Source of the DNA: a virus
Strand: one strand, 5' to 3'
Virus record (IMG/VR): IMGVR_UViG_3300026521_000148
Location: 1 to 64,000 of that record
DNA: 64,000 nt
Position numbers and translations under genes: made by a program. Under the pieces are notes generated by a model. That model saw nothing but the letters and a program-made list of their open reading frames with translations. It searched no databases and was not told where the DNA came from. This document shows positions 5,435 to 42,378 of this stretch, one piece after another (within the stretch, counting starts at the first letter, position 1; the number at the start of each line of letters is the position of its first letter).

Positions 5435-5449
5435 AAAATAACTGGATAA

Positions 5450-8318: not shown

Positions 8319-9412
8319 TTATTTAAAATACATTTCACAAGCTTTCTTACCTACCACATCTAATGTTGTCGCTAATGTACCCATTAATGTAGGACTAGAC
8401 ACGATACGTGCTAAGTTACCTTTCATACTGAACACAGCATCAACTTCATCTTTTTTATCATCAGTAACTATATCATAATCATACTGTGTTGTTAATGTGG
8501 ATTTAAGTTGTGATGCTATAACACATTTATCACCAGGTATCATACCACCTTGTACATCAATGTAGAATTTGATATGCAGCTTACCTTCCTCTAAGGGAAC
8601 ACCATTGATACTATAACTACTGTTAACTCTACCGTCATATTGTTTACCTGTATCATCGTCTACCATATAAGGTAGGCTAACATCAACTAGTTTTTTAAGT
8701 GATTTACTTAAATCCTTATACTCGCAGTTATGATACACTTTAACCTTAAATACTTTGCCTTTATACTTAGCTTTAGGCGATACCTTTATAAAACTTTGTA
8801 ATAAATCTAATGTTTGTTTATCTAATTTATCATCTTTTATAACGTTACTAACCATAGTGAATAATGCTGTGTTTGGATCAACATCTGTATTCATGTTTAC
8901 TAATTCAGCTATTTCATCTGACTTATCCATAACTAAATCACGTATCTTTATCTGACTTACAACAGTATCATCACATACTTTCTTACTTAACATTAAGGCA
9001 TCTTCATATGTTTCTTGTACTTCCTGCCATGCTATGTTTATAATAGTGTTAGCTCTATATATGACCTTAGTTGGATCAAATATATCGGGCTCGAAGAAAC
9101 TAAAATCATAATACAGTATATCGCCGTATTTAACTTTTTGTTTCTCTTTAACATTAGGTTTAAGTTTATGTATAAACGTAGTACCCGATTCCTCTTTACT
9201 AGTCCAATCTTTAAAACTATAAGTTTTCTTTTTACCATCTTTATATTTAACTGTTATTGTGTTCTTTCCTACTTTTTCAATAACACCATCATCTTTAGCA
9301 TAGCCTACAAATTTCTCATCCATTCTATATGCTACTAAGGATTCATAACCTGTTCTAACCGGAAATGCTTTCGGGTTATAAATCGGTATGATATGTGAGT
9401 TCTGAATATTGA
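8319..9412 (-). CDS. RNA polymerase beta-like subunit, exon 2 (C-terminal part)
   Basis: This is the second exon of the phage multi-subunit RNA polymerase beta homologue. Spliced to exon 1 it reads S-I-L-G-F-N-I-Q-N-S-H-I-I-P, aligning with the bacterial R-A-L-M-G-A-N-M-Q-R-Q-A-V-P. Downstream are the flap-like KVKYGDILYYDFSFFEP, the GDK motif (IPGDKCVIASQLK, counterpart of the GDK-GRHGNKG region that contacts the nascent RNA and NTP) and EVDAVFSMKGNLARI, matching VDIVLNPLGVPSRM. The apparent GTG start at 9452 lies in intron sequence and is probably not used. The joined coding length (3103+1094 nt) is divisible by three, giving 1398 aa, close to bacterial beta. phiKZ instead splits beta over two genes. 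Confidence 0.88.
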
Positions 9413-9989
9413 CGTAAAGTGCGTTGTATTCAGCAAGTGCGCTACTACTCACCAGTTCTCAGTATCTCTACACGAACTTCCCATCCATTACAGATGGATA
9501 CTAGACTATATCTTATCATTCCTAATGTTTTTTATATTAGGAAGACCCTTTCGTTTCGATTTAAGGACTGCCGTCCACCCGCTTGGGCCCTACTCTACTC
9601 GCTTTAACTACATATGTAGCCATGGGGTTATTACACTACCCATGTGATTAACTAGATCTATCACTAGTCTAGTATAGCTTTCGATAGTCGTTGAACACAT
9701 CCCATATACATAAGTACTTAGGGACTTCGCTGCGCTGATTAGAGTACTTAATAAAGGTTTTTACGTAACCTAGTAGGAACATTACCCTGTAGGTGTTACA
9801 GTATGTTTCCATCTGTAAGACGTACTTTATTAATTAGTATATACTCCTCCCCGCAATTAGAAAGGTAATTTATCACTACATTTAAGTAGCGGAGACCATG
9901 TTTAAATAATCTGTGTAATATAGGAAATAATTTTCCTTATACCACAAATCGCGTCCTTTATAATAATATTCATAAAAAGACTATTCAAT
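9413..9989 (-). ncRNA. Group I intron (577 nt) in RNA polymerase beta
   Basis: The intron follows a T (9990) and ends in G (9413), as group I introns require. Core elements on the minus strand are CTAATTGCGGGG (about 9849-9860), GTTCAACGACTATCG (9682-9696) and AAGATATAGTC (9504-9514); GACTA and TAGTC pair as P7. A probable internal guide GGTCTCC lies at 9891-9897. It has no endonuclease gene. Long stretches are near-identical to intron 3 of the beta' gene, and one helix (ATGGG:CCCAT here, ACAGG:CCTGT there) shows compensatory changes. That supports real folding and common origin. Confidence 0.92.
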
Positions 9990-12900
9990 ACCCCAATATT
10001 GATCTCTTAGGGTCATCAAGCATACTGAATGGCGCCAACATAGCTGATGTCGACAATATGTTACTTATTTTTAATTTATCAACACTCGTATCTTTCATAC
10101 CACGTATATTACCCAATAAAGGATTAGCACTCATATATGCAGTTATACCAACATCCCCACTATCTTTACTAGACTCAGATATAACACCTATATCATCAAT
10201 GTGTGTTTCTCTTGTACTAGCATTTAGACTATCTTTACTTCTACCGTTTGTGCCTAGATAAGTACTATCTTCTAACTGTTTTAAAGCTGCTATTGGATTA
10301 ATATCTTCTACTAAACTAGCAGCACTATCTTCGTTAATAGTCCTCCATGTAGCATATGGATCTACTACTAACCTACTCCTACCAAAGAACTCCTCATTCT
10401 TTTTCTTACGTATACTATCTACTAATGTTTTATAAACATACTGAGGAACACGTTCATATCCTTTCATAACGTAACCCTTGATACTATTAGGATGGTTATA
10501 AAAATCATCCAACAACATCTCACTAGCTCTTATAAGTAATTTTATAAAAGTAGTAGGCTCCCCCATAGTTTCTAATGTGGTTTCAGTAACTGGGTCTATA
10601 AAAAGATTTTCATAAACTTCTATATCAGTGGTAGCACTTAAACTTAATCCTATTTCGTTAAAAATAGTTTTAAATAGTTGTTTGTTATTTAATACATCTA
10701 TATCTACCTTTCTAAGTATCTTATCGTTATGTAAGAAACCATCTAGTATCATGTTGTTAAGATCGCTGCTCCTATCTATGACAAGAGTATTGAATTTAAA
10801 TCTAACGATTATAACATTCTCATCTTTAACCCTAACTCTACCGCCCTCTAGTACCTTATAATTAACTTTAAGATACTTAAGCATGCCATATAGACCCATA
10901 TAATAACTAAGTACTAAAGATACAGGAATATATGTAGCAGCTATTTTCATTAACGAATATTCTGGTTTTATAATAGTTGTATCTAAGCCAACTATCCCAT
11001 CTATAGTATTAACCTCTGTATATTTCTTATTTTTATAGATATATATAACATTATTAAAATCCATAACTAATAAACTATCTTTGTATGTACCACATAACAC
11101 ATACTTATCTTTCTCTATATCCTTCACTTCTTCTTTTGTTAAATCCATACGTTTATAGTAACTAAAAGAAAAAACAAAACTATCATATTTAAAAGATTTT
11201 ATATATCTACCATAGGCACTATAATCACTAGGGACTTTAACAGCGACTAGTTTCTGGCTATTATCTACCAAGTTTTTTACTTTACCATCATCAACAAGTT
11301 TTTTAAGTTGTTTCTTTAAAGCAAAACCTCTATCTAATTTTTTAGCAGGAGCTCTATCTATAAATATCTTACCTGTAGCACTAGTTAAACCAACTCTATT
11401 ATATGCTATCTTTTTAATAGGTACATCGGCTCTTTGTTTTCTTAGGATATACTGGTTACCAGATAATGTGTATCTACCCTTTTCATCTATGATAGGTAAC
11501 TTAACTTTAACATCATAACTAGACTTACCCATATCATTAAGCGATACAGTATATTCTTCATATGCTCCTAAGATATCATCGCGTTCTTCTCTCTTTATAT
11601 CTTTAAGTATAAGTCCTGCTTTACTAGTACTACCTATACTAGCTATAAGATCTTTTCTATAAACATTTTTCATATATTGTTTAGTAACAGCACCTAACGT
11701 ATCTTCTGCATCTTCTGGATTACCTGTCTTTGTTATGGGTATCTTTTTATCCTCTTCCTTTATCTTTAATTCTTCTTTAGATATAACTATTAAGTCTTTT
11801 ATCTTTTTACCATCTTTAAAAGGACTAGGCTTATTTAGGCCTTCTTCCAATGTTTCTACTAATTTTTTATATTTAGCAGGAGGTAATAACTTATTATTCT
11901 TTAACTCTTCTAACTGTGCTAAAGTAGTTCTCTTTATATCTGTTTTATCTATATCATCATCAGCCATAGTAGTATATTTGTTTATATAACTAGTAGCCAC
12001 TACCGTATCAGGATCTACAACCTCTTCTTGCACTGTTTCTTCTATATGAACTACATCTTCCTCTTTACTAGATTCTTTCTCTATATGTTTTATTAATTCT
12101 TCATCTGGTATATCCTCTATAACACTATCTTCTTTATCCTTAGTTATACCCATAAGAAGTTTATCAGAAAACTTATTATCATCAATATCTTCTGGAGTAA
12201 AACCAGGCATGAGTAAAACAGTTTTTAACATAACAAAGAAAGATTTCTGTAGTTGATGTCCATCTAGTTTAGTGTTGTTATCTATATTAGATATCTTTAA
12301 GAAACTATAAAGTTTTTCTAAATTAACGAATATACCTTTATCATTTTTAGTTAAAACTATAGTTGTATTTTTAGCTACACCTGTTTCTATAAGTTTATAA
12401 AATACAGATGTTTTACTCACATCATCATCTAGTAACTTAATGAATTCTAATAATAACAATCTACTTGTATCGTAGAATAACTTTATCATTTCTGTAGTTG
12501 GAGTTTCATATTTACTATACTTTTCCAAAATAGGTAAAGCATATAATGTATCAGGTATCTCCATGATAACAAACTGATGTAATGACTCATTACTATTATA
12601 CATTCTACTATTATCTATAAGATCATTAACTAATGTATGTATTGCATTCTGGAACATTTGATAATACTCTAGTATAGTAGAGTTGTACTTGTAAGAAAGA
12701 TGTACTGTATTAAAATTTATTACAGGTATAGTCTTTTTAATGTCATTTGGTTTTTTCATTAAGATATTATGGAACTTCTTTTCTCTAACAAGTTTAATAT
12801 CAAAATGTTTTTTCTTTATATCTTTATAAATAGTAGATTCTTTATGTCCGTTAGTTCTAGCTTTAAAAGGTGGGTTGTTATATTTGTATATATTAAATAC

Positions 12901-13092
12901 AAACTTCTTTTTAGCGAACCTAATGAAATAATGATCATTACTAACGTAATTACTACTGTTAGGGTTGAAAATATACAACATACTATAATATGGAAGCACT
13001 ACCATATTAAGATCTAATATCTTCGGAGTCATGAATGATTGTAAGTTTTTAAGACCAAACTTCTTCTCAAAATCACTGTATTTAGTGGTCAT
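9990..13092 (-). CDS. RNA polymerase beta-like subunit, exon 1 (N-terminal part)
   Basis: The catalytic beta homologue of a phage-encoded multi-subunit RNA polymerase. The N-terminal ~350 residues are divergent, then a long acidic linker (about 330-480). The fork region follows: INPIAALKQLEDSTYLGTNG and GRSKDSLNASTRETHIDDIG align with the bacterial NPLSEITHKRRISALGPGG and VHPTHYGRVCPIETPEG region. The exon ends ML-APFSMLDDPKRSILG, matching SLIPFLEHDDANRALMG. Translation into the intron adds only a Tyr before a stop. The upstream element CTTCTTTGAATTTAAAA resembles that of the second beta' gene, so polymerase subunits may share a promoter type. Whether this is the virion or the non-virion polymerase cannot be told here. 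Confidence 0.9.
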
Positions 13093-13152: not shown

Positions 13153-13180
13153 TATAGAGTAGGTCATAACCTACTCTATA
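13153..13180 (-). terminator. Hairpin terminator
   Basis: A perfect 12-bp stem (TATAGAGTAGGT / ACCTACTCTATA) followed on the minus strand by TGTTTTTTATTTTTG. It overlaps the stop of the 116-aa gene. Confidence 0.85.
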
Positions 13181-13526
13181 CATCATAATCCCAAGATGTT
13201 TTATCCCAATCTATTTCCTTTTCATAGGTTATATCGAAATCGTCTTCAATATTAACTACGACTCCATTCTCTATATATAATAGATATTGGGCGTTTAGAT
13301 CATATATCTCTACTGTATAATTACCTACTAATATAGCTGGTAATTTATCTGGTAAATATTTTTCAGTCCAATAAGGACCTTCATTACCTAATAAATCTGT
13401 TAATACGAATTTATTATTTTTTATAGTATAGTGATCTAGATCGCACATAAGATCTTTTGTCTGGTAATCACCGCACGGTAAACCAAAATCATTTTTCTCT
13501 ATAACAACAGTATCAAACATTCCCAT
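13176..13526 (-). CDS. Hypothetical acidic protein (116 aa)
   Basis: Function not known. It begins MGMFDTV, an opening I recall from small unknown proteins of several large phages, and is acidic with a C-terminal D/W-rich stretch. It follows the 125-aa zinc protein with no gap, as the last gene of the 15245-13176 operon. Confidence 0.75.
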   Translation of the reverse strand: MGMFDTVVIEKNDFGLPCGDYQTKDLMCDLDHYTIKNNKFVLTDLLGNEGPYWTEKYLPDKLPAILVGNYTVEIYDLNAQYLLYIENGVVVNIEDDFDITYEKEIDWDKTSWDYDV

Positions 13527-13904
13527 TTAAGTATCCTTTATGTTTAAATTATATTTAGGTATACTAATAATATCGCCATCATCTAGCTTGCATAACCATA
13601 AACCATTTTTCTTTACCCTTATAACCATAACAGTTTTACCTATATATTCACGATGCGTTAAACCTAAATCATTACTACCATTAATTGTTATCGTCCTTCC
13701 TTTTACAGATAATGGTGCTTCAGATATATTACACTCATAACACAGCTTTTCTACGTTAATTTTAATATTGTCTACCATACCACTACTTATAAGATATCTA
13801 TTAGGGTATGCTGCGTAGGTACTATCGTCTATTCTTATAGTACGTAATACATCGCAATGTTCCCCACATCTTACACACGTAAATTTCCCATTATGCCCTA
13901 ACAT
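13527..13904 (-). CDS. Zinc-ribbon-like protein (125 aa)
   Basis: Two cysteine pairs, CVRCGEHC near the N-terminus (residues 10-17) and CYEC near residue 56, suggest a zinc-binding fold followed by a small beta domain (KTVMVIRVKKNGLWLCKLDDG). No precise family is recognised. It overlaps the upstream cysteine-cluster gene by 7 nt. Confidence 0.7.
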   Translation of the reverse strand: MLGHNGKFTCVRCGEHCDVLRTIRIDDSTYAAYPNRYLISSGMVDNIKINVEKLCYECNISEAPLSVKGRTITINGSNDLGLTHREYIGKTVMVIRVKKNGLWLCKLDDGDIISIPKYNLNIKDT

Positions 13905-14362
13905 AAGAATTCCTTTTTGAATTTTATATAATTACTTATTAGGTAATTCTCATTACTTCTAAAAGCTTCATATCTTAGCTTTTCTCTAGTCTCTTCATCT
14001 GGTAAAGTTTCTAATCCAGCATATCCGCATTTACAATATTCCTTACTACCATAATCTCTACATATACGAGGTCTATGCTCATATACGCTACATAAACCAT
14101 CTTTTAAGAATACACAAGGGAGAGATGGCTCGACGCCTTCTCCCTTAAACGTTAATCTAGCACCAGGAACACCATCTGTGTTAGGTACTATTTTTATCTT
14201 CTTAAATAGAGATTTATGATTCTTTTTAAGTAACTCTATTTCACTCATCTCCATGATTACATCTCTAGTGCAGCATTCACCACACTCTTTACATGGTAAA
14301 ACGTCACAACCTTCACAATCAACACTACGTATCTTCTCCATGAATTTTTCTAACTCATCCAT
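13898..14362 (-). CDS. YkgJ-type cysteine-cluster protein (154 aa)
   Basis: Contains the full YkgJ-type signature: CxxCxxCC (CKECGECCTRD), a central PCVFLKDGLCSVYEHRPRIC and RDYG. These proteins are thought to bind zinc or iron; their reaction is largely unknown. Two extra cysteines precede the core (CEGCDVLPC). The gene lies directly downstream of the MYG1-like gene in one operon, so a metal- or nucleic-acid-related role shared between them is possible. Confidence 0.8.
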   Translation of the reverse strand: MDELEKFMEKIRSVDCEGCDVLPCKECGECCTRDVIMEMSEIELLKKNHKSLFKKIKIVPNTDGVPGARLTFKGEGVEPSLPCVFLKDGLCSVYEHRPRICRDYGSKEYCKCGYAGLETLPDEETREKLRYEAFRSNENYLISNYIKFKKEFLC

Positions 14363-14387
14363 CGTCTATCCTTTATTATTTTTTTTA

Positions 14388-15245
14388 TCACTTGTATAGG
14401 TTCTTATTTAAATAACTCATAAGATCATCATATGTTTTAGCCACCATGAAGAACTCTCCTTTATGAACGAACTCTATACCATCTGGTAGCTCATCAGAAC
14501 ATCTTATACTTCTACCACGCTTACCATAACTACCTTTCTTATCAGGGATAGTTTGTGCGTTCCATGTATCTTTACCATCATCGTACCATATGATAACGTC
14601 ATATCCATCTAGTTCATTTATATCATGTATAACTTCACTCCAACCCTTTATATAGCCATCTGCAGATACCAACATACCGTCAACATCTGTAGCTCTCTTA
14701 AGTTTATCTACAGCCTCCATACGCATAACCCATCTATGTATATGGTCCCTTATGATAACAACACATACGTCACTAGCATCCATGAAGTTATCTAACTGCT
14801 CAACATCGTTATAAACATCTGCACCGTTATAACAACCTATGATCCTAGATAACTCCCATTCTTCACTAGGTTTTACACCTATATCGTTCTCATCTATCTT
14901 ATCTACTATAGGGCGTAATGTAGCATAAGCACCACCTAACTCTTCTTTAAAATACTCTAAAACCATCCCAGCACTACTATACCGGCATTCATCCTTACTG
15001 TACTGATGATGATCAAAATGCTTACACTCTTTACACTCAACTTTACCTATATCTATGATGTATCCTAACTCACCTTGTAATCTTATAAGTTCATTAACAT
15101 CTGTCTGATGCCTCATACGTATAGGCTCGTTAACTTTGTTACCCTTAAGCTTTTCAACTACCCTTATTAAACTATATGCAAATACTTCATCAGCATGAAA
15201 AGTACCACTATGTGTAACAACATTTATCTCTCTAACTTCATTCAT
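14388..15245 (-). CDS. MYG1/UPF0160-family metal-dependent hydrolase (285 aa)
   Basis: Related to the MYG1 family, which has a DHH-like fold and has been described in eukaryotes as an RNA exonuclease. Visible motifs: VVTHSGTFHADEVFA (residues 9-23, H and D metal ligands), DIG near residue 65, FDHHQ (about 77-81) and DENDIG near 137. Length is slightly shorter than the usual ~300 aa. It heads the operon 15245-13176 behind a class I motif. Phage-borne copies may act on nucleic acids or nucleotides (inference). Confidence 0.8.
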   Translation of the reverse strand: MNEVREINVVTHSGTFHADEVFAYSLIRVVEKLKGNKVNEPIRMRHQTDVNELIRLQGELGYIIDIGKVECKECKHFDHHQYSKDECRYSSAGMVLEYFKEELGGAYATLRPIVDKIDENDIGVKPSEEWELSRIIGCYNGADVYNDVEQLDNFMDASDVCVVIIRDHIHRWVMRMEAVDKLKRATDVDGMLVSADGYIKGWSEVIHDINELDGYDVIIWYDDGKDTWNAQTIPDKKGSYGKRGRSIRCSDELPDGIEFVHKGEFFMVAKTYDDLMSYLNKNLYK

Positions 15246-15288
15246 AACTCTAACCTTTAAATCTTAATATAATTAGTATAACAACATA

Positions 15289-15311
15289 TACTAGGTTAAT
15301 AATATATAAGT
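15289..15311 (-). promoter_or_regulatory. Class I promoter-like motif
   Basis: GGTTAATAATATATAAGTA on the plus strand. It lies just downstream (in the minus direction) of the structured RNA region and 44-66 nt before the MYG1-like gene. Confidence 0.6.
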
Positions 15312-15327
15312 AAATATATTTACAGAT

Positions 15328-15672
15328 AGTTAACTAGACATCATAAGGTGTGGTCTAGTTTCATTCTCCCACACCCACCCAAGCATATGGTATCTACCTC
15401 CTCATGATTCACTACGTTCACATGGGAGCTAACCCCTAACCCACTTCCCTTTATTCCTAGTAGTTGCTAGGTTGTGCTGTACCCGTTAGCTCCTTCATAC
15501 ACCACCCCGTTCCAGAGGCAGTGTATGAAGTAATTAGGCACAAGTTAAGAAAGGGTCGCTACGGCTCTCGTAACTAGATAGCAGTGATCGCAACCAAGCC
15601 AGGTCTCTATAGATAGAAGTTTAGTTGGTGATTTAGATATGATTATCTTTCTTAACATTTAATCAGTTAACT
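15328..15672 (-). ncRNA. Candidate structured non-coding RNA (about 345 nt)
   Basis: No plausible gene lies between 15246 and 15712, and the stretch is visibly richer in G and C than its surroundings. It holds several perfect stems: 15544-15553 with 15647-15656 (GTTAAGAAAG/CTTTCTTAAC), 15494-15502 with 15521-15529 (TTCATACAC/GTGTATGAA), and 15425-15433 with 15485-15493 (GGAGCTAAC/GTTAGCTCC) enclosing 15456-15460 with 15467-15471. A further stem pairs 15332-15339 with 15353-15360. The ends can also pair (AGTTAACT at 15328-15335 and 15665-15672). It lies between a terminator (15699-15717) and a promoter-like motif (15289-15311), as a separate unit would. Strand is inferred from the neighbours. 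It does not look like tRNA, tmRNA, RNase P or group I RNA. Confidence 0.6.
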
Positions 15673-15698
15673 TCTTAAATAGAAAAAATAAAAAAAAA

Positions 15699-15717
15699 GA
15701 TAGGAATAGATCCTATC
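15699..15717 (-). terminator. Hairpin terminator
   Basis: GATAGGA / TCCTATC stem followed on the minus strand by an eight-base T-run and ATTTTTTC. It ends the 106-aa gene. Confidence 0.85.
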
Positions 15718-16033
15718 CTCTTAATCTCTCTTCATCACAGAAGAGTTTTGAGAAGCCTATTACAGCCTCTACTATATCTCTTGCTTTAAATATTATATAT
15801 GCTTTTGTTCTATCATCAGCTAACTCATATATACGTTGTGCTTTAGGTTTAGTGCCTTTAACTATACCGGTACCAACTCTATAACCGAAACACATTACAT
15901 TATTATCGTAAGCGTCTAAGAACGCCTCTAGTGTTTCTTGTCTCTGGTCTTTTGAGTTTGCTTCTCCTGTTATGTATCTATGACTCATAGCTTCGTTACT
16001 TAAACCTAATCTACCATTTAAACTTAACATCAT
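15713..16033 (-). CDS. Hypothetical protein (106 aa), monocistronic
   Basis: Not recognised. A soluble small protein with its own class I motif (16102-16125) and terminator (15699-15717). The ATG at 16033 follows an AAGGAGT ribosome-binding site. Confidence 0.7.
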   Translation of the reverse strand: MMLSLNGRLGLSNEAMSHRYITGEANSKDQRQETLEAFLDAYDNNVMCFGYRVGTGIVKGTKPKAQRIYELADDRTKAYIIFKARDIVEAVIGFSKLFCDEERLRG

Positions 16034-36727: not shown

Positions 36728-37045
36728 TTAATATCGGCGTATCAGTCTTTTAAAGATTCTGTATTTCACCCATATCCTATGTTCCAATAATTCTTCTAGG
36801 CTATCGTATTTATAACTTGGCTCACCTATAGATGTTCCTAAGTTCTCAATTTTTAAACATCTATTACGTGTGTAAAAATATACATTCTTATCCAGTTTTG
36901 CTATGTACAGTTTATAGAAATAATATTTTCTACACATCTCACATCCGCCATTGATGCCTATCATATATAGCCTGTCATCATTCTGTTTTGGTGTGAATAC
37001 TACTAATAATAGAAACATAATGGTACCAATTATAAAATAATCCAT
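36728..37045 (-). CDS. Membrane-anchored small protein (105 aa)
   Basis: One N-terminal membrane helix (MDYFIIGTIMFLLLVVF), then a CEMC pair and a basic C-terminal part. The orientation (short N-out or N-in) is unclear, and no family is recognised. It follows the 53-aa membrane protein in one short operon. Confidence 0.7.
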   Translation of the reverse strand: MDYFIIGTIMFLLLVVFTPKQNDDRLYMIGINGGCEMCRKYYFYKLYIAKLDKNVYFYTRNRCLKIENLGTSIGEPSYKYDSLEELLEHRIWVKYRIFKRLIRRY

Positions 37046-37057
37046 GTTTACTCCATT

Positions 37058-37219
37058 CTATTTATCGATATCATAATACCCATACGTAACTATGGTTAAA
37101 AATAACTGAGTCTCTGTGTATTCAGGGTGCGTTACTCTTAAGTATATATTACCTATCATAATGTAACCTACAAAAGCAATAGCTACCAGCGTTACTAATG
37201 CGTCTTTAATCTTTTCCAT
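37058..37219 (-). CDS. Small single-pass membrane protein (53 aa)
   Basis: A short frame with an AGGAAG ribosome-binding site and a class I motif upstream (37252-37270). It begins MEKIKDALVTLVAIAFVG and has one membrane helix (about residues 7-27) and a tyrosine-rich C-terminus. It is co-transcribed with the next membrane protein. Function unknown. Confidence 0.65.
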   Translation of the reverse strand: MEKIKDALVTLVAIAFVGYIMIGNIYLRVTHPEYTETQLFLTIVTYGYYDIDK

Positions 37220-37251
37220 GATTCTTCCTTATTTACTTTTATTAGTACACT

Positions 37252-37270
37252 GTACTATTTTAATAATATA
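37252..37270 (-). promoter_or_regulatory. Class I promoter-like motif
   Basis: GTACTATTTTAATAATATA on the plus strand, between the beta' terminator and the 53-aa gene. Confidence 0.55.
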
Positions 37271-37288
37271 AAAATAAAAAAGATTAGA

Positions 37289-37316
37289 ATGTATGGTGGG
37301 ACATCCCACCATACAT
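37289..37316 (-). terminator. Hairpin terminator after RNA polymerase beta'
   Basis: ATGTATGGTGGG / CCCACCATACAT perfect 12-bp stem with a 4-nt loop, followed on the minus strand by CTAATCTTTTTTATTTTT. Confidence 0.85.
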
Positions 37317-37531
37317 CACATTTCTAATATTTGTTTATACACAGGACAATCTGGATCATCCTCTTCTACTTTACTAAGATAATTCATTAATGTTAATGAA
37401 CTTGTTTTAGGTAAGTTAAGGTTACCGCTTATCTTGTAAATATCTAGAGCAGGTAGATTGTTGTGTGGTGCGAACACCTCTGCTAACTCTACTAGTCTAT
37501 TACTAAGTAATAAGGCAAAGTTTAATTCCGT
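37316..37531 (-). CDS. RNA polymerase beta'-N paralogue 1, exon 4 (C-terminal end)
   Basis: The last exon of the mosaic beta' gene. It starts T-E-L-N-F and continues FALLLSNRLVELAEVFAPHN, which aligns with the region just after the bacterial NADFDGD loop and parallels DKVSLN in paralogue 2. It contributes 71 residues and ends KQILEM. The apparent TTG start at 37543 lies in intron 3 sequence that is shared with the beta intron, so this is not an independent gene. The spliced protein of about 480 aa ends before bridge helix and trigger loop, which must be on another subunit. Confidence 0.85.
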   Translation of the reverse strand, partial: TELNFALLLSNRLVELAEVFAPHNNLPALDIYKISGNLNLPKTSSLTLMNYLSKVEEDDPDCPVYKQILEM

Positions 37532-38156
37532 CGCTTTCAGCAAGTGCGCTACTACTCACCAGTTCTCAGTATCTCTACATGAACTTCCCATCCATTACAG
37601 ATGGATACAAGACTATATCTTATTCCTTATATAACTACACGAGTTATATAGGATCACCCCATTTCGTCTTTAAGGGGACAATACCCCACCACTTGGCGCT
37701 ACTCTACTTTCTTTAACTACATATGTAGCCACAGGGTTACTACACTACCTGTGTGATTAACTAGATCTATCACTAGTCTAGTATAGATTTCGATAGTCGT
37801 TGAACTCACACACTCTAGTCATACTAGATCACTCTCGTGGTTTAAGGTGCTTCGCTGCGTCGATCGGAGTCTAATCAATAGGTTTTTACCATGCTAGTAT
37901 TTCTATTACCGACACTAGTTACATAGTCTGTTTCCAGCTATGGGTGGTACTATTAATATAACAACTCCTCCCCGCAATTAGAGGTGTATCAACTACCTTA
38001 CGGTAGAGCTAATCATTACTGATTAGGGAGACCAATTAAATTATTTTTATAGTATAACCATTCCGTTCCGAGTTTTTTTACCAATGTTTTTCTATCGATA
38101 TTAAGGAACTTTGCAGCTTTTCTTAAACTAATCTCGTAAATACGGACTATTTTTTA
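37532..38156 (-). ncRNA. Group I intron 3 of the beta' gene (625 nt)
   Basis: It starts after GAT of F-D-G-D (38157) and ends in G (37532). The core on the minus strand has CTAATTGCGGGGAGG (about 37968-37982), GTTCAACGACTATCG (about 37791-37805) and AAGATATAGTC (about 37613-37623). Its guide GTCTCC (in 38027-38033) pairs perfectly, with the terminal U-G wobble, to the 5' exon end GGAGAT. About 85 nt at its 3' end are almost identical to the beta intron. It contains a degenerate reading frame (see 38016-38147). Confidence 0.9.
38016..38147 (-). pseudogene. Remnant of an intron endonuclease (C-terminal helix-turn-helix)
   Basis: A 43-codon frame without start codon encodes ISLRKAAKFLNIDRKTLVKK and a W-L-Y-Y-K-N-N ending. 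This is the helix-turn-helix type tail found at the C-terminus of homing endonucleases. It lies 5' of the ribozyme core, the same place as the intact endonuclease gene of intron 2, and its last codons overlap the guide sequence. It is probably what is left of a lost endonuclease. Confidence 0.6.
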
Positions 38157-38168
38157 ATCTCCATCAAA
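38157..38168 (-). CDS. RNA polymerase beta'-N paralogue 1, exon 3: 12-nt exon coding F-D-G-D
   Basis: TTTGATGGAGAT lies exactly between two group I introns. It is preceded by G (intron 2 end, 38169) after a P9-type hairpin and ends in T. Its last six bases GGAGAT pair with the guide of intron 3. Upstream exon 2 ends A-Y-N-M-D and downstream exon 4 begins T-E-L-N-F, so joining gives N-M-D-F-D-G-D-T-E-L-N-F, the universal Mg-binding loop of multi-subunit polymerases. Without this exon the protein would lack two of three catalytic Asp, which strongly argues that it is real. Confidence 0.85.
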
Positions 38169-39483
38169 CCCACTTCTCTCGAAGTGTGGACCATATCATG
38201 ATCACTTACATACCCATAGAGTAATGTAGGACCCTCTCCGTTTCGCCATATTAAAATACAGCTACTCTACTTTCTTTAATATCTTTATAAGATACCAACC
38301 AGTTATTACGTCATGGTTGTGATTAACTAAGTCTGTTACCAGCTTAGTATAGATTTCGATGGCCTCTGAACACATACCATACCTCTATGAAGGTTAGGCA
38401 CTTCGTTGCGTCGATTAAGATCTATTTAACAAGTTTTTACTATGCCCTTAGTTCCACTATTACGGCTAGGGTATCATAGTCTGTTTCCAGCTATGAGTAG
38501 TATTGCTAACATAACGATCTCTTCCCGCAGTTAGGAGAGTTTGCTTATATAGTTACCTATATAAGGGACTTCTTATCTTAGTATTTAAAATAACAATTTT
38601 ATTCCTAGAGTCGATATAGTATCTCTAACTAGGGTGTTGCCGGGTACATTATATAATTTACCTATATAAACGAGTGAATTGGTCGCCACCATTTCACCAT
38701 CTTTAATAAACCAATATTTACAAATATTAGTCAACTTTTTCTTTAACACTTCCTCTATATTGTCTATATCTAAATAATTCAACACAGCGAAAGCGTAACC
38801 ATTCTCTTTAGCATATCTCTTTTTTACTATGTCACTAGCCTGTCGTTTCTTAAAACCATGTTCACCACCCCAGATTTTTACTGGAGTATAATGTTGGCCA
38901 CTATGAAACTCTAATAACATATTTACTATAGGTATATAAAAATCATACCTATATTGTTTACCATTTATAGATACCCTGAACTCACGTTTATATTCTATAC
39001 CATACTTATCTAATATACTACTTATAGCTAATTCACCTGAGCTACCACCACACTTAGGACACCCATGGCCACGTAATAATAACTGTGGTGTTGTATCGAA
39101 CTCACCATGTATCGGACAACCTATGGTTATGTTAGTTCTATTGTTTTTATAGTTAACTTTACTATAATCAAGTTTATTACCAAACTTCTCCCTAGCTTTC
39201 TTTATGAACCTTTCTGTATTCATTTTACTGTTACCTGAACATTCGCTACACCCGAAGCCGTTTAAGTGGTCTCCTGGTCTTTGCTGGTAGTCACCATGTA
39301 TCTTACATGTTATGGTTATTTTTGTGCTTCTGTTTTTGTATACTGCGTTATCGTAAGTATAACGTCCGTTATGGACTTTAGTGGCTCTACCGATGAACTC
39401 CTCGGTAGTTAACTTTTTACCCATTCTATACCCCTGTTTGTTTGTTTTATGCGTTGTTTTTTATTTATCTACTAAGAAATTTT
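38169..39483 (-). ncRNA. Group I intron 2 of the beta' gene (1315 nt) with endonuclease gene
   Basis: It starts after GGAT (39484) between the first Asp and Phe of D-F-D-G-D, and ends in G (38169). The endonuclease gene sits 5' of the core. Minus-strand core elements: CTAACTGCGGGAAG, GTTCAGAGGCCATCG and CATGATATGGTC. P7 pairs GGCCA with UGGUC, where the related introns have GACUA with UAGUC, a covariation that supports the fold. A P2-type hairpin (CTTATATAG / CTATATAAG) and a guide GTCC (within 38565-38569, pairing with GGAT) are visible. Confidence 0.9.
38585..39424 (-). CDS. Intron-encoded homing endonuclease, DUF723 + PD-(D/E)XK/Vsr-like (279 aa)
   Basis: Spreads intron 2 by cutting intronless polymerase genes. 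Two zinc-ribbon-like repeats (CKIHGDYQQRPGDHLNGFGC and CPIHGEFDTTPQLLLRGHGC, each ending CxxC) are followed by a nuclease domain with the pattern YRYDFYIPIVNMLLEFHSGQ and HY, matching the usual RFDF...LIEYDGEQH motif of Vsr-like homing enzymes; the second Asp of EYDG is His here. The C-terminal 40 residues form a DNA-binding helix-turn-helix-like tail (IGKLYNVPGNTLVRDTISTL). It lies wholly inside intron 2, on the same strand as the host gene. Confidence 0.8.
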   Translation of the reverse strand: MGKKLTTEEFIGRATKVHNGRYTYDNAVYKNRSTKITITCKIHGDYQQRPGDHLNGFGCSECSGNSKMNTERFIKKAREKFGNKLDYSKVNYKNNRTNITIGCPIHGEFDTTPQLLLRGHGCPKCGGSSGELAISSILDKYGIEYKREFRVSINGKQYRYDFYIPIVNMLLEFHSGQHYTPVKIWGGEHGFKKRQASDIVKKRYAKENGYAFAVLNYLDIDNIEEVLKKKLTNICKYWFIKDGEMVATNSLVYIGKLYNVPGNTLVRDTISTLGIKLLF

Positions 39484-39588
39484 ATCCATATTATAAGCGC
39501 TAGCCACGAGAACGGATATAGAGACCGTTGTATCGTTAGCATCATGCTTAAATTTTGTTATATATAGTTTTTGTATGCTGCCTTGGAG
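39484..39588 (-). CDS. RNA polymerase beta'-N paralogue 1, exon 2
   Basis: A 35-codon exon hidden between two introns. It ends VSISVLVASAYNMD, aligning with bacterial IQLHPLVCAAYNAD, and begins LQGSIQKLYIT, matching the L-G-I-Q-A-F segment after NRAPTLHR. The 3' end at GGAT is well supported (U at the exon end, guide pairing, frame). The 5' end is less certain: a junction CAT|CTC (G-F-H-L-Q-G-S-I-Q) fits frame, terminal G and a CCAU/GUGG guide pairing, but junctions a few bases away (39580-39582) cannot be excluded. Confidence 0.8.
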
Positions 39589-41268
39589 CAACGAAGGCTA
39601 GTTGCATACTATATTGTAACACATAAGTATTACAGTACGCAACACAGACTATATCATATATATATAAATCTTATAGGTCTGCTTAACCTATTGTTAATCG
39701 ATCGTCTCGACACCATATTTTTCCTCTAACGCCCTATTATTAAGAGACGCCATTACGCCAATAGTTAACCCTAACTCTTTAGCTAGCTCTACTCGACTAT
39801 AGATATATCTATTATTAAGTTTGTACAACTTACCATCTATAGATTTACCATGCTTACTAAGTATTAATTGTTTATTAGTATAAATATCCTTTAAAGGATA
39901 ATCATCACATAATCTCGTAATGACATAACCACTAAATATACCAGCTCTATTAAACTTCTTAGCAGCAGTTTCTACTTTAGCGCTTATAGTTCTAGGTTTA
40001 ACATTTAGTTTATTAGCAAAGTCTGTGACAGCCTGATATTCAGTAATGGTACCGTTAACTGGATCATAGACTCTGATACCATTACATATCTTTTTGATGG
40101 GTTTAGACCATATAGCTGTTCTATCGCGCTGTGCTCTCTCCTTATCTTCTAGATCTAAAGTTATCTTAGATGTATCTATAGGTTTATACGAGAACGTGTA
40201 TCCGCCTATGTATTTAGTGTCTTGTTTTAATAGATCCTTACTAAACGATGTATGAACTATACCTGTGGCGAATGATGCGTGGTATAAGTTATTATATTCT
40301 TTTACCTCGCCTGCCATATGGTCTAGTACATATACGAGTCTATCTGAATCACCAGTAAAATGTACTTTAGCAGTTATCTTATATCTACCGTTTATAGGAT
40401 ATTTACTAGATCTAGGTATATAAGCTATGAGGGTATCATTACTTATCTTCAGGTATTTACTAAGCTCTTCAAGACTGATGAAGTTCTTTTTAGTACCTTC
40501 TTTTATATCCTCTAAGATACATTTGAAGTTATCTTTGCGAAGGCCCTCTTTGAACGCATGTTTAACATTCTCCGAAGCAGATACCGCTTCTAAGTTAGAT
40601 ATATGGTTATTGTATTTATTACCATCTTTATGATTGATCTGGTATTTATGGCCATCCCGTAGTTTGATATCTTCTGGTTTACCGAAGGCGTTAATAACCA
40701 TTACATGTATGCTGCGATTGAGTTTACCGCCATCATCTAGAGGCAGGTTAATCCTCTCATAGCCTCTGTTAGATTTAAAGGTCTTTCTTATTTTACCTGT
40801 TAATGTATTAAGTACTTTACCAGTATTGGATATAAGATATCCTTTACAATTCTCTATCTCCCTCCATTCCTCTTTCATTTTTTGTTTCCTTGTTGTTTTT
40901 AAGATTTATATATATCGTGGCGTTTCGATTTAAGGATCGCCTGATCCACTATAGTATAACTATAGCCCTACTCTACTGGATTTAATACCATATGGTACCA
41001 GAGAATTTTATATCTCTGTCACTCCTCTTAAGATCACTCTTAAGACGCATCGTTCGATAGTCGTTGAGCACATCCCATATACATAAGTACTTAGGGACTT
41101 CGCTGCGTCGATCGCTCCAGTGTATATCTTTTCACTATGCCTACTTATCCTTAATTACGGTGTAGGTGTCATACTACATTTCTGTGTATGAGTAGTAATA
41201 TACGACTTATGGAGTTTCCCGCGATTAGCCACGTTCTTTAGACAGAGTTATTAAGCAGCTAACTCTGA
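39589..41268 (-). ncRNA. Group I intron 1 of the beta' gene (about 1680 nt) with HNH endonuclease gene
   Basis: Minus-strand core elements: CTAATCGCGGGAA (about 41216-41228), GCTCAACGACTATCG and ATATGATATAGTC (about 39649-39661). The endonuclease gene lies in the loop of a perfect 16-bp stem (ATATATATAAATCTTA with its complement), which is P8. A P9-type hairpin (GTTGCGTACT / AGTATGCAAC) follows. The segment with CCCATATACATAAGTACTTA is shared with the beta intron. Boundaries are good to within about ten bases at each end. Confidence 0.85.
39694..40878 (-). CDS. Intron-encoded HNH homing endonuclease with NUMOD4 (394 aa)
   Basis: A homing enzyme for intron 1. The N-terminal NUMOD4 motif is WREIENCKGYLISNTGKVLN (residues 5-24). 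The HNH core lies about 68-112 (ends NHKDGNKYNNHISNLE). The long C-terminal region has several helix-turn-helix-like DNA-binding segments (ITEYQAVTDFANKLNVKPRT, SRVELAKELGLTIGVM). It is placed in the P8 loop, so ribozyme folding is undisturbed. Same strand as the polymerase gene. Confidence 0.88.
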   Translation of the reverse strand: MKEEWREIENCKGYLISNTGKVLNTLTGKIRKTFKSNRGYERINLPLDDGGKLNRSIHVMVINAFGKPEDIKLRDGHKYQINHKDGNKYNNHISNLEAVSASENVKHAFKEGLRKDNFKCILEDIKEGTKKNFISLEELSKYLKISNDTLIAYIPRSSKYPINGRYKITAKVHFTGDSDRLVYVLDHMAGEVKEYNNLYHASFATGIVHTSFSKDLLKQDTKYIGGYTFSYKPIDTSKITLDLEDKERAQRDRTAIWSKPIKKICNGIRVYDPVNGTITEYQAVTDFANKLNVKPRTISAKVETAAKKFNRAGIFSGYVITRLCDDYPLKDIYTNKQLILSKHGKSIDGKLYKLNNRYIYSRVELAKELGLTIGVMASLNNRALEEKYGVETID

Positions 41269-42378
41269 ATGGAACCCTATTTGATTCCTGTTACCCAATA
41301 CAGCGATACCTTTACCTTTAGCTTCACGTATTAGTTCATCACCTATATCTGCTATCTCTTGGTCGAACATAAGAGTAGCGTTAAACACCTTAGCAGATGC
41401 TTGTTTATAAGTATAACCTCTTCTTTTAAGTTTGTTAAGAACATGCGGTCTAAATGTTGTTGTTAGTATGGACCATGGGACATGTATAGTGTCATAATCA
41501 TATTCCCTACCTAATGAAGAAACAACACATCTAAATGTAAAATGAGCTCTTGTACCATAAATATTCTTACGGATAAGACCGCCTTTTCTAGACACGAGAT
41601 CTTTAACATAGTTAGTAAATAACTCTGCTGATTTACTTATGATCTTAGCTGTGTTAGTTTCTAACCGTTTATTTGTCATAGTGATATCGTTAGACGTATT
41701 GATAGCTAATAATGCTAAGTCTATGATATCAGATAGTAAAACAGATGTGTAGTTACCCTTATTAGTTGTTTCCATAACAAACAACTTTTTGTTAATAAGA
41801 GGTATGTGGTCTGAAAAGATTTTATCATGATCTTCTCTATATAACTTAAGTAATGCATCTAGCTTAACTTGTTTAGTTAATGTTTTATAATATGCATTAT
41901 TCTTAAGAAATATGATGATCTTCTCTAAATTGTTAACAACATTAAGATAACTTCTACCGCCTATGATCTCTTTTAAAGATAATAGAACTATCGGTATAGA
42001 TGGTGGGTTATAAGTTGTGTCTGATAACCATCTTAAACCATCTACTTTAGTATTAATAGTTCTCGATAAATCAGCCCAAAACTTAGGGTTAATAAATACC
42101 AACTCTTTTCTAAACTTCTCTACCCACAATATAGGCTCCACTGAGTCGAATACGTTAACAACAGTTGTGTCGCATCTAGGACATGTTCTACCCAACAGGT
42201 AGGCTTTCTTATAATAACCGCACTCACACTGAGGTATCATAGAGATCTCATCGTCATACGTTGTATAGATAAGATCTTTGATATTATCAGTACTGAGTGA
42301 AATATCATTAAGTAATAGTTTCCTATTAACCCTTTGATATAAGTCATCTAGTTGTATATAACTTTGTACAATAGCCAT
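41269..42378 (-). CDS. RNA polymerase beta'-N paralogue 1, exon 1
   Basis: The N-terminal part (370 codons) of a beta' homologue. A zinc finger is present (CECGYYKKAYLLGRTCPRC, about residues 50-68), unlike in paralogue 2. RKGGLIRKNIYGTRAHFTFR (about 275-294) matches [40 protein letters not shown] matches [20 protein letters not shown], and the exon ends AVLGNRNQIGFH, matching PVLLNRAPTLH. The extra S-E-L-A-A and stop are read-through into intron 1. Spliced with exons 2-4 it gives about 480 aa ending after the DFDGD loop. A class I motif lies upstream at 42414-42437. Confidence 0.88.

Follow-up and report, generated by a model that had tools for sequence, protein, structure and literature searches.

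The window, the whole 64,000-nt stretch that was analysed, belongs to a virus contig of 80.35 kb that, judged by its multisubunit RNA polymerase genes, is from a phiKZ-like jumbo phage. These genes are related to phrog_3148, phrog_2986 and phrog_2987 and share only ~36-38% identity with their cultured relatives. On the minus strand, a group I intron at 9480-9918 (50.6 bits), which an Rfam scan of the whole window missed, splits the RNA polymerase beta-like gene into exons at 9985-13092 and 8319-9452. Further introns are possible at 36728-42378, where two HNH endonuclease genes (38585-39424 and 39694-40878) and 1.5 kb of sequence in which no ORF reaches 100 aa lie beside polymerase genes; Rfam gave no match in this region.

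The island studied here, at 15328-15672, has a minus-strand gene on either side, one a 106-aa ORF (15713-16033) and the other a MYG1-like 285-aa ORF (14388-15245; Pfam PF03690). Accessory genes, including the MYG1-like gene and a CxxCxxCC gene (PF03692), occupy 13176-16033 between two polymerase genes and are absent in the nearest relatives. In those relatives (L015-L018, with a polymerase 45-52% identical to that of the window phage), the two polymerase genes adjoin or have other small ORFs between them, without the island genes. Searches with the 285-aa, 106-aa and polymerase proteins, each alone, identified no close relatives, and whole records of the polymerase-matched relatives held nothing convincing for the island or for the 285-aa or 106-aa protein. 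Because the island and both neighbouring genes are missing from the nearest relatives that we found, we regard this as an accessory stretch.

A reading of the sequence alone had proposed a structured RNA here, in a gene-free, GC-richer island with five or more perfect stems of 8-10 bp, one of them joining the two ends. This description was borne out: no ORF of at least 40 aa lies inside 15328-15672, the GC content is 42.9% compared with 31.1% for the window (top 0.02% among 345-nt stretches), and five such stems are present. The stems and the signals that flank the island are as follows.

15493-15502/15521-15530, perfect inverted repeat of 10 bp
15544-15553/15647-15656, perfect inverted repeat of 10 bp
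15425-15433/15485-15493, perfect inverted repeat of 9 bp
15332-15339/15353-15360, perfect inverted repeat of 8 bp
15328-15335/15665-15672, perfect inverted repeat of 8 bp, the end pair
15652-15675, minus strand, late-promoter-like site AGAAGTTAACTGATTAAATGTTAA, score in the range of the seed sites
15682-15722, minus strand, intrinsic terminator of the upstream 106-aa gene
15285-15318, minus strand, class I (early) promoter serving the MYG1-like gene that follows (14388-15245), 3' of the RNA

In dinucleotide shuffles the expected number of perfect stems with 8 bp or more is 0.72, and none of 300 shuffles reached five. On the same contig, 11 of 185 windows, which are AT-rich and ordinary, also hold five such stems, and the folding z-scores of the island are modest (-2.8 on the plus strand and -2.7 on the minus strand); for these reasons the stems alone are suggestive and are no proof of an RNA. 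The end pair consists of two copies of a self-complementary, AT-rich 8-mer, AGTTAACT, the right one of which overlaps the late-promoter-like site, so this pair may be flanking sequence and not an RNA helix. A hairpin of 16 bp at 15493-15530 includes three G-U pairs and for that reason is unbroken only on the minus strand.

Both flanking signals named in the sequence-only reading, a terminator and a class I promoter, are present, but the early promoter (~15313, minus strand) faces the 285-aa gene and not the island, and so is not the RNA's own. The terminator, recognised from its sequence and inverted repeat, would isolate the RNA from the 106-aa gene, and none is evident at 15328. The late-promoter-like site (~15665, minus strand; score rank 107 of ~128,000 positions) coincides with the predicted RNA start and is suggestive only as a promoter there. 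The early promoter class (CACTTATATATTATTAATATAGTATA) occurs on the minus strand of the window at 5435, 8259, 15313, 16126, 32617, 45687 and 52211, and a separate late promoter class, around TTTGAATTTAA, is found near ribosome-binding sites.

A family of structured RNAs in T4-like phages

We scanned viral contigs with a core pattern, GAGCTAACNNNTACAGCAC, drawn from the minus strand of the island. The scan returned 57 stretches. The full 19-mer (GGG for NNN) is present in 46, and almost all of these share one RNA context with an extended motif; a shorter core returned more than 119. Besides the window, 118 loci match the profile of this family. Those whose neighbours were checked are from T4-like phages, with genes for gp46/gp47-like recombination proteins, portal, prohead protease and baseplate hub nearby. 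Nearly all of the loci come from uncultivated T4-like phages, and the invariant core GAGCNAACGGGUACAGCACAACC is common to them.

No family member was found among 50,697 cultured-phage records, and BLAST against cultured phages and plasmids gave chance matches only. A search of 84,980 genomes with 18/19-mers identified one true member, on the MAG contig L271; the other matches were due to chance and lacked the family context. A second pattern, from the SD region (GAGGAGGTAGATACC), gave 64 matches, none fitting the family profile. Core matches with one or two mismatches in two jumbo phages also had no family context; one (G014) lies in an open frame and the other (G022) looks coding.

The T4-like RNA is ~300 nt long and has ten helices, with pseudoknots that include H7 (columns 127-135/220-228) and delta. 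In an alignment of 45 members with less than 96% identity, 97.7% of the paired cells hold pairing. Two-sided compensatory changes affect 28 pairs and 337 cells, compared with 86 cells in shuffles (0 of 500 shuffles on all measures), and only 18-51 two-sided cells remained when partners were slid by 1-3 columns. In helix H6, nine of the ten pairs carry compensatory changes. The alignment shows that selection acts on the fold of the T4-like RNA. Among 74 distinct sequences, 71 have GNRA and 3 have UAAC as the loop of one particular hairpin, a constancy that we read as the mark of a tertiary contact.

By eye, most of the listed members are preceded by a sigma70-like promoter (TTGACC, ~17 nt, TATAAA or similar), and the hairpins at the 3' end vary between groups with pairing kept. 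With its own promoter and end hairpins, the T4-like RNA is probably a free transcript of ~450 nt. The gene that follows it varies among loci and in several is on the opposite strand; the promoter, the hairpin end and the lack of a fixed co-directional downstream gene argue for a stand-alone RNA.

After the core, two direct repeats lie ~55 nt apart (such as ACCACAG, ACGTGAT or AGCACAT), the same within a genome and differing between genomes. They are perfect in 43 of the 45 members (permutations average 12.6, maximum 20), and a search for a complement or antisense target of these co-varying repeats found none that was consistent.

Comparison of the island with the T4-like RNAs

On its RNA strand, the T4-like family reads the core in the orientation found on the minus strand of the island, and for this reason we place the island RNA on the minus strand. 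Its proposed parts are as follows.

15328-15660, minus strand, proposed structured ncRNA, with predicted 5' end near 15660 and 3' end near 15328
15470-15501, minus strand, conserved core TGTATGAAGGAGCTAACGGGTACAGCACAACC, in which the 23-nt GAGCTAACGGGTACAGCACAACC is identical to family members
15485-15493, minus strand, helix delta 5' strand GGAGCUAAC, pairs with 15425-15433 (family AUGAGC/GCUCAU)
15425-15433, minus strand, helix delta 3' strand GUUAGCUCC, pairs with 15485-15493
15538-15543, minus strand, helix beta 5' strand UUGUGC, pairs with 15472-15477; beta crosses delta to make a pseudoknot
15472-15477, minus strand, helix beta 3' strand GCACAA, within the invariant core
15550-15555, minus strand, possible helix alpha 5' strand CCCUUU, pairs with 15447-15452; its position fits family alpha
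15447-15452, minus strand, possible helix alpha 3' strand AAAGGG
15493-15530, minus strand, 16-bp hairpin with hexaloop UGGAAC, inserted between beta 5' and delta 5'
15544-15656, minus strand, 10-bp stem GUUAAGAAAG/CUUUCUUAAC closing the 5' domain
15456-15471, minus strand, hairpin CCUAG-CAACUA-CUAGG, 3' of the core
15332-15375, minus strand, possible H-type pseudoknot near the 3' end, GGUGUGG/CCACACC crossing AACUAGAC/GUCUAGUU (inverted repeats)
15330-15386, minus strand, 18-aa ORF MLGWVWENETRPHLMMSS inside the RNA, preceded by AGGAGGU (15396-15402)

The invariant core matched the island with nhmmer at E=1.4e-6, and covariance model R1, built from 26 T4-like cores, ranked the island first in the window, at 27.6 bits and E=5.9e-5, with an alignment that reaches through the 3' strand of delta; both are selected E-values because the query pattern came from the island. 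By this model the island is level with L264, the most divergent T4-like member (25.7 bits), and above unrelated sequences picked by a pattern of similar kind (13-19 bits).

The sequence-only reading had made its proposal depend on homologues that keep the pairings, and two core helices are indeed kept between the T4-like family and the island. Helix delta is present as 9 bp (0 of 20,000 shuffles) and differs from that of the family by a compensatory change from U-A to G-C. Helix beta is present as 6 bp in a shifted register (p 0.047 alone); it is GUUG/CAAC in the family and GUUGUG/CACAAC in L264, so that the island and L264 both extend it inward. Within the family beta is invariant and thus uninformative alone. 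The island's candidate for alpha, which is UCGC/GCGA in the family, competes with the 10-bp stem. The order of the elements is that of the family: alpha 5' (possible), beta 5', delta 5', core, beta 3', hairpin, alpha 3' and delta 3'.

Only ~32 nt and two or three helices are shared, and the outer domains are replaced. None of the family's helices H1-H6, nor its H7 pseudoknot or GNRA hairpin, can be recognised in the island, of which the covariance model aligns core and delta only, and no homologues of the island's peripheral stems or 3' pseudoknot were found. By these comparisons, most of the periphery is specific to this phage. Because core, beta and delta are kept but the outer domains differ, the island probably belongs to the class but falls outside its T4-like subfamily. 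The fragments searched from the closest jumbo relatives (45-52% polymerase identity) do not contain the island, so no second jumbo member bears on the pairings. The SD (AGGAGGU) of the 18-aa ORF lies in a possible hairpin, and no equivalent of the ORF or its SD was seen in the T4-like family.

Alternative explanations and possible function

We consider it likely that the island is a ~330-nt minus-strand gene for a structured ncRNA, a divergent member of an uncatalogued class that is otherwise T4-like and has a pseudoknotted core, with beta and delta around GAGCNAACGGGUACAGCACAACC. The claim of a structured RNA from a class outside Rfam gains support from the covarying T4-like family, which has its core in common with the island. 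As this core recurs in more than 100 uncultivated T4-like phage fragments with a strongly covarying RNA, the RNA appears widespread in phages.

A small but real chance remains for convergence or horizontal transfer of the core as a short protein- or RNA-binding motif, with the rest of the island an unrelated RNA. Sequence identity does stop at the core, and the periphery is wholly different. However, delta, beta and the candidate alpha stand in family order around the core, and the T4-like members L224 and L264 swap peripheral domains as well. We think it unlikely that the island is instead a cis-acting element, in which a late promoter at ~15665 would give the MYG1-like gene (14388-15245) a long 5' leader regulated by the SD-bearing 18-aa ORF and alternative stems. 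Such a leader would fit the shared strand of RNA and gene, the late-promoter-like site, the partial pairing possible between the SD AGGAGGU and CUCCCAUG, and the absence of an obvious terminator at 15328. Against it, an early promoter of the 285-aa gene lies in between, and the T4-like RNA has a promoter and end hairpins of its own and no constant downstream gene, the next gene being on the opposite strand in several loci. It is highly improbable that the island acts at the DNA level, as a small insertion flanked by the 8-bp repeats or as a replication or packaging site. AGTTAACT at both edges, the foreign GC content and the absence of the island from relatives would suit such an element, but this 8-mer is self-complementary and AT-rich, and the family has RNA-type covariation, G-U pairs, GNRA loops and promoters.

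The island did not resemble tRNA, tmRNA, RNase P or the phage's group I introns in the sequence-only reading, and our searches agree: ARAGORN identified no tRNA or tmRNA in the island, and Rfam 15 gave no match to it, RF00028 included. No Rfam match was obtained in 13 T4-like loci at the gathering threshold or in 8 at E<=1, and ARAGORN placed no tRNAs beside the RNA in 33 loci. Like group I introns, the new RNA is a phage RNA with a pseudoknotted core, but the flanking ORFs end before the island and the family is intergenic. The sequence-only reading suggested another class beside the large phage RNAs GOLLD and ROOL; the island does seem to represent one, and its nearest relatives found are the T4-like phage RNAs, not GOLLD or ROOL. 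ROOL RNAs are ~580 nt long. Both GOLLD and ROOL are large and ornate, and many GOLLD RNAs exceed 800 nt (PMC12286853). They share with the new RNA multiple pseudoknots, a function that is not known, and a conserved and a variable part, but they show no sequence or covariance match to it, and the new RNA is shorter (~300-470 nt) and has no tRNAs beside it. A known family (GOLLD, ROOL, group I intron, tmRNA or RNase P) too diverged for Rfam would share this style of size and pseudoknots (PMC12286853); given the lack of Rfam, tmRNA and tRNA matches, we judge it very unlikely. Grad-seq has also yielded ncRNA candidates in phiKZ, the first one described being ~100 nt (PMC8545117). These too are ncRNAs of a phiKZ-like phage, but the island has no match among cultured phages, phiKZ relatives included. 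In the open literature on phage, marine and T4-like structured RNAs we found work on GOLLD and ROOL and general surveys, with no description recognisable as this RNA; an earlier mention is possible in subscription papers, preprints or supplements, which lie beyond this scope.

In the reading that we prefer, transcription of the island RNA would start at a site of its own, beyond the terminator of the upstream gene, and the RNA probably acts in trans. That the core is invariant suggests a site of binding or activity for a component that very different phages have in common. The fold may present this segment to a partner found throughout such different phages and their hosts; host machinery is the likeliest candidate, and the outer domains would be replaceable scaffolding. 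As a first guess, that partner is perhaps translation or tRNA metabolism. We can only tentatively picture a multi-pseudoknotted RNA machine in T4-like and phiKZ-like jumbo phages whose core engages a host-universal partner (translation or aminoacyl-tRNA metabolism), sometimes with an adjacent aminoacyl-tRNA-dependent transferase. Large structured RNA classes are rare, and the phage ones (GOLLD and ROOL) are still without a function. The new RNA, known from more than 100 uncultivated-phage fragments, has a core of unusual invariance and is small enough for its structure to be determined directly. Through an RNA and not a protein, it connects two phage lineages that are very distant from each other, so the core alone could serve in searches for further members and partners.

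A protein of ~256 aa is encoded within 1.5 kb of the RNA in 36 of 51 well-flanked T4-like loci (for example L076:7700-8467:+); it is absent within that distance in the other 15 and from the window. It has no Pfam or PHROG match and was found in no cultured phage, and a sequence search of the PDB returned nothing meaningful. Its predicted model (pLDDT 83) resembles aminoacyl-tRNA-dependent transferases in fold, with ATE1, MprF-type synthases and FemX closest (E 6e-6 and below 1e-3; TM-scores 0.3-0.5). This modelled neighbour hints at a role of the RNA in tRNA or translation. Mimicry of rRNA or antisense pairing with it was considered and set aside, as no match extended beyond 9 nt. A SegE-like GIY-YIG endonuclease gene often lies divergently upstream of the RNA gene, as in L076.
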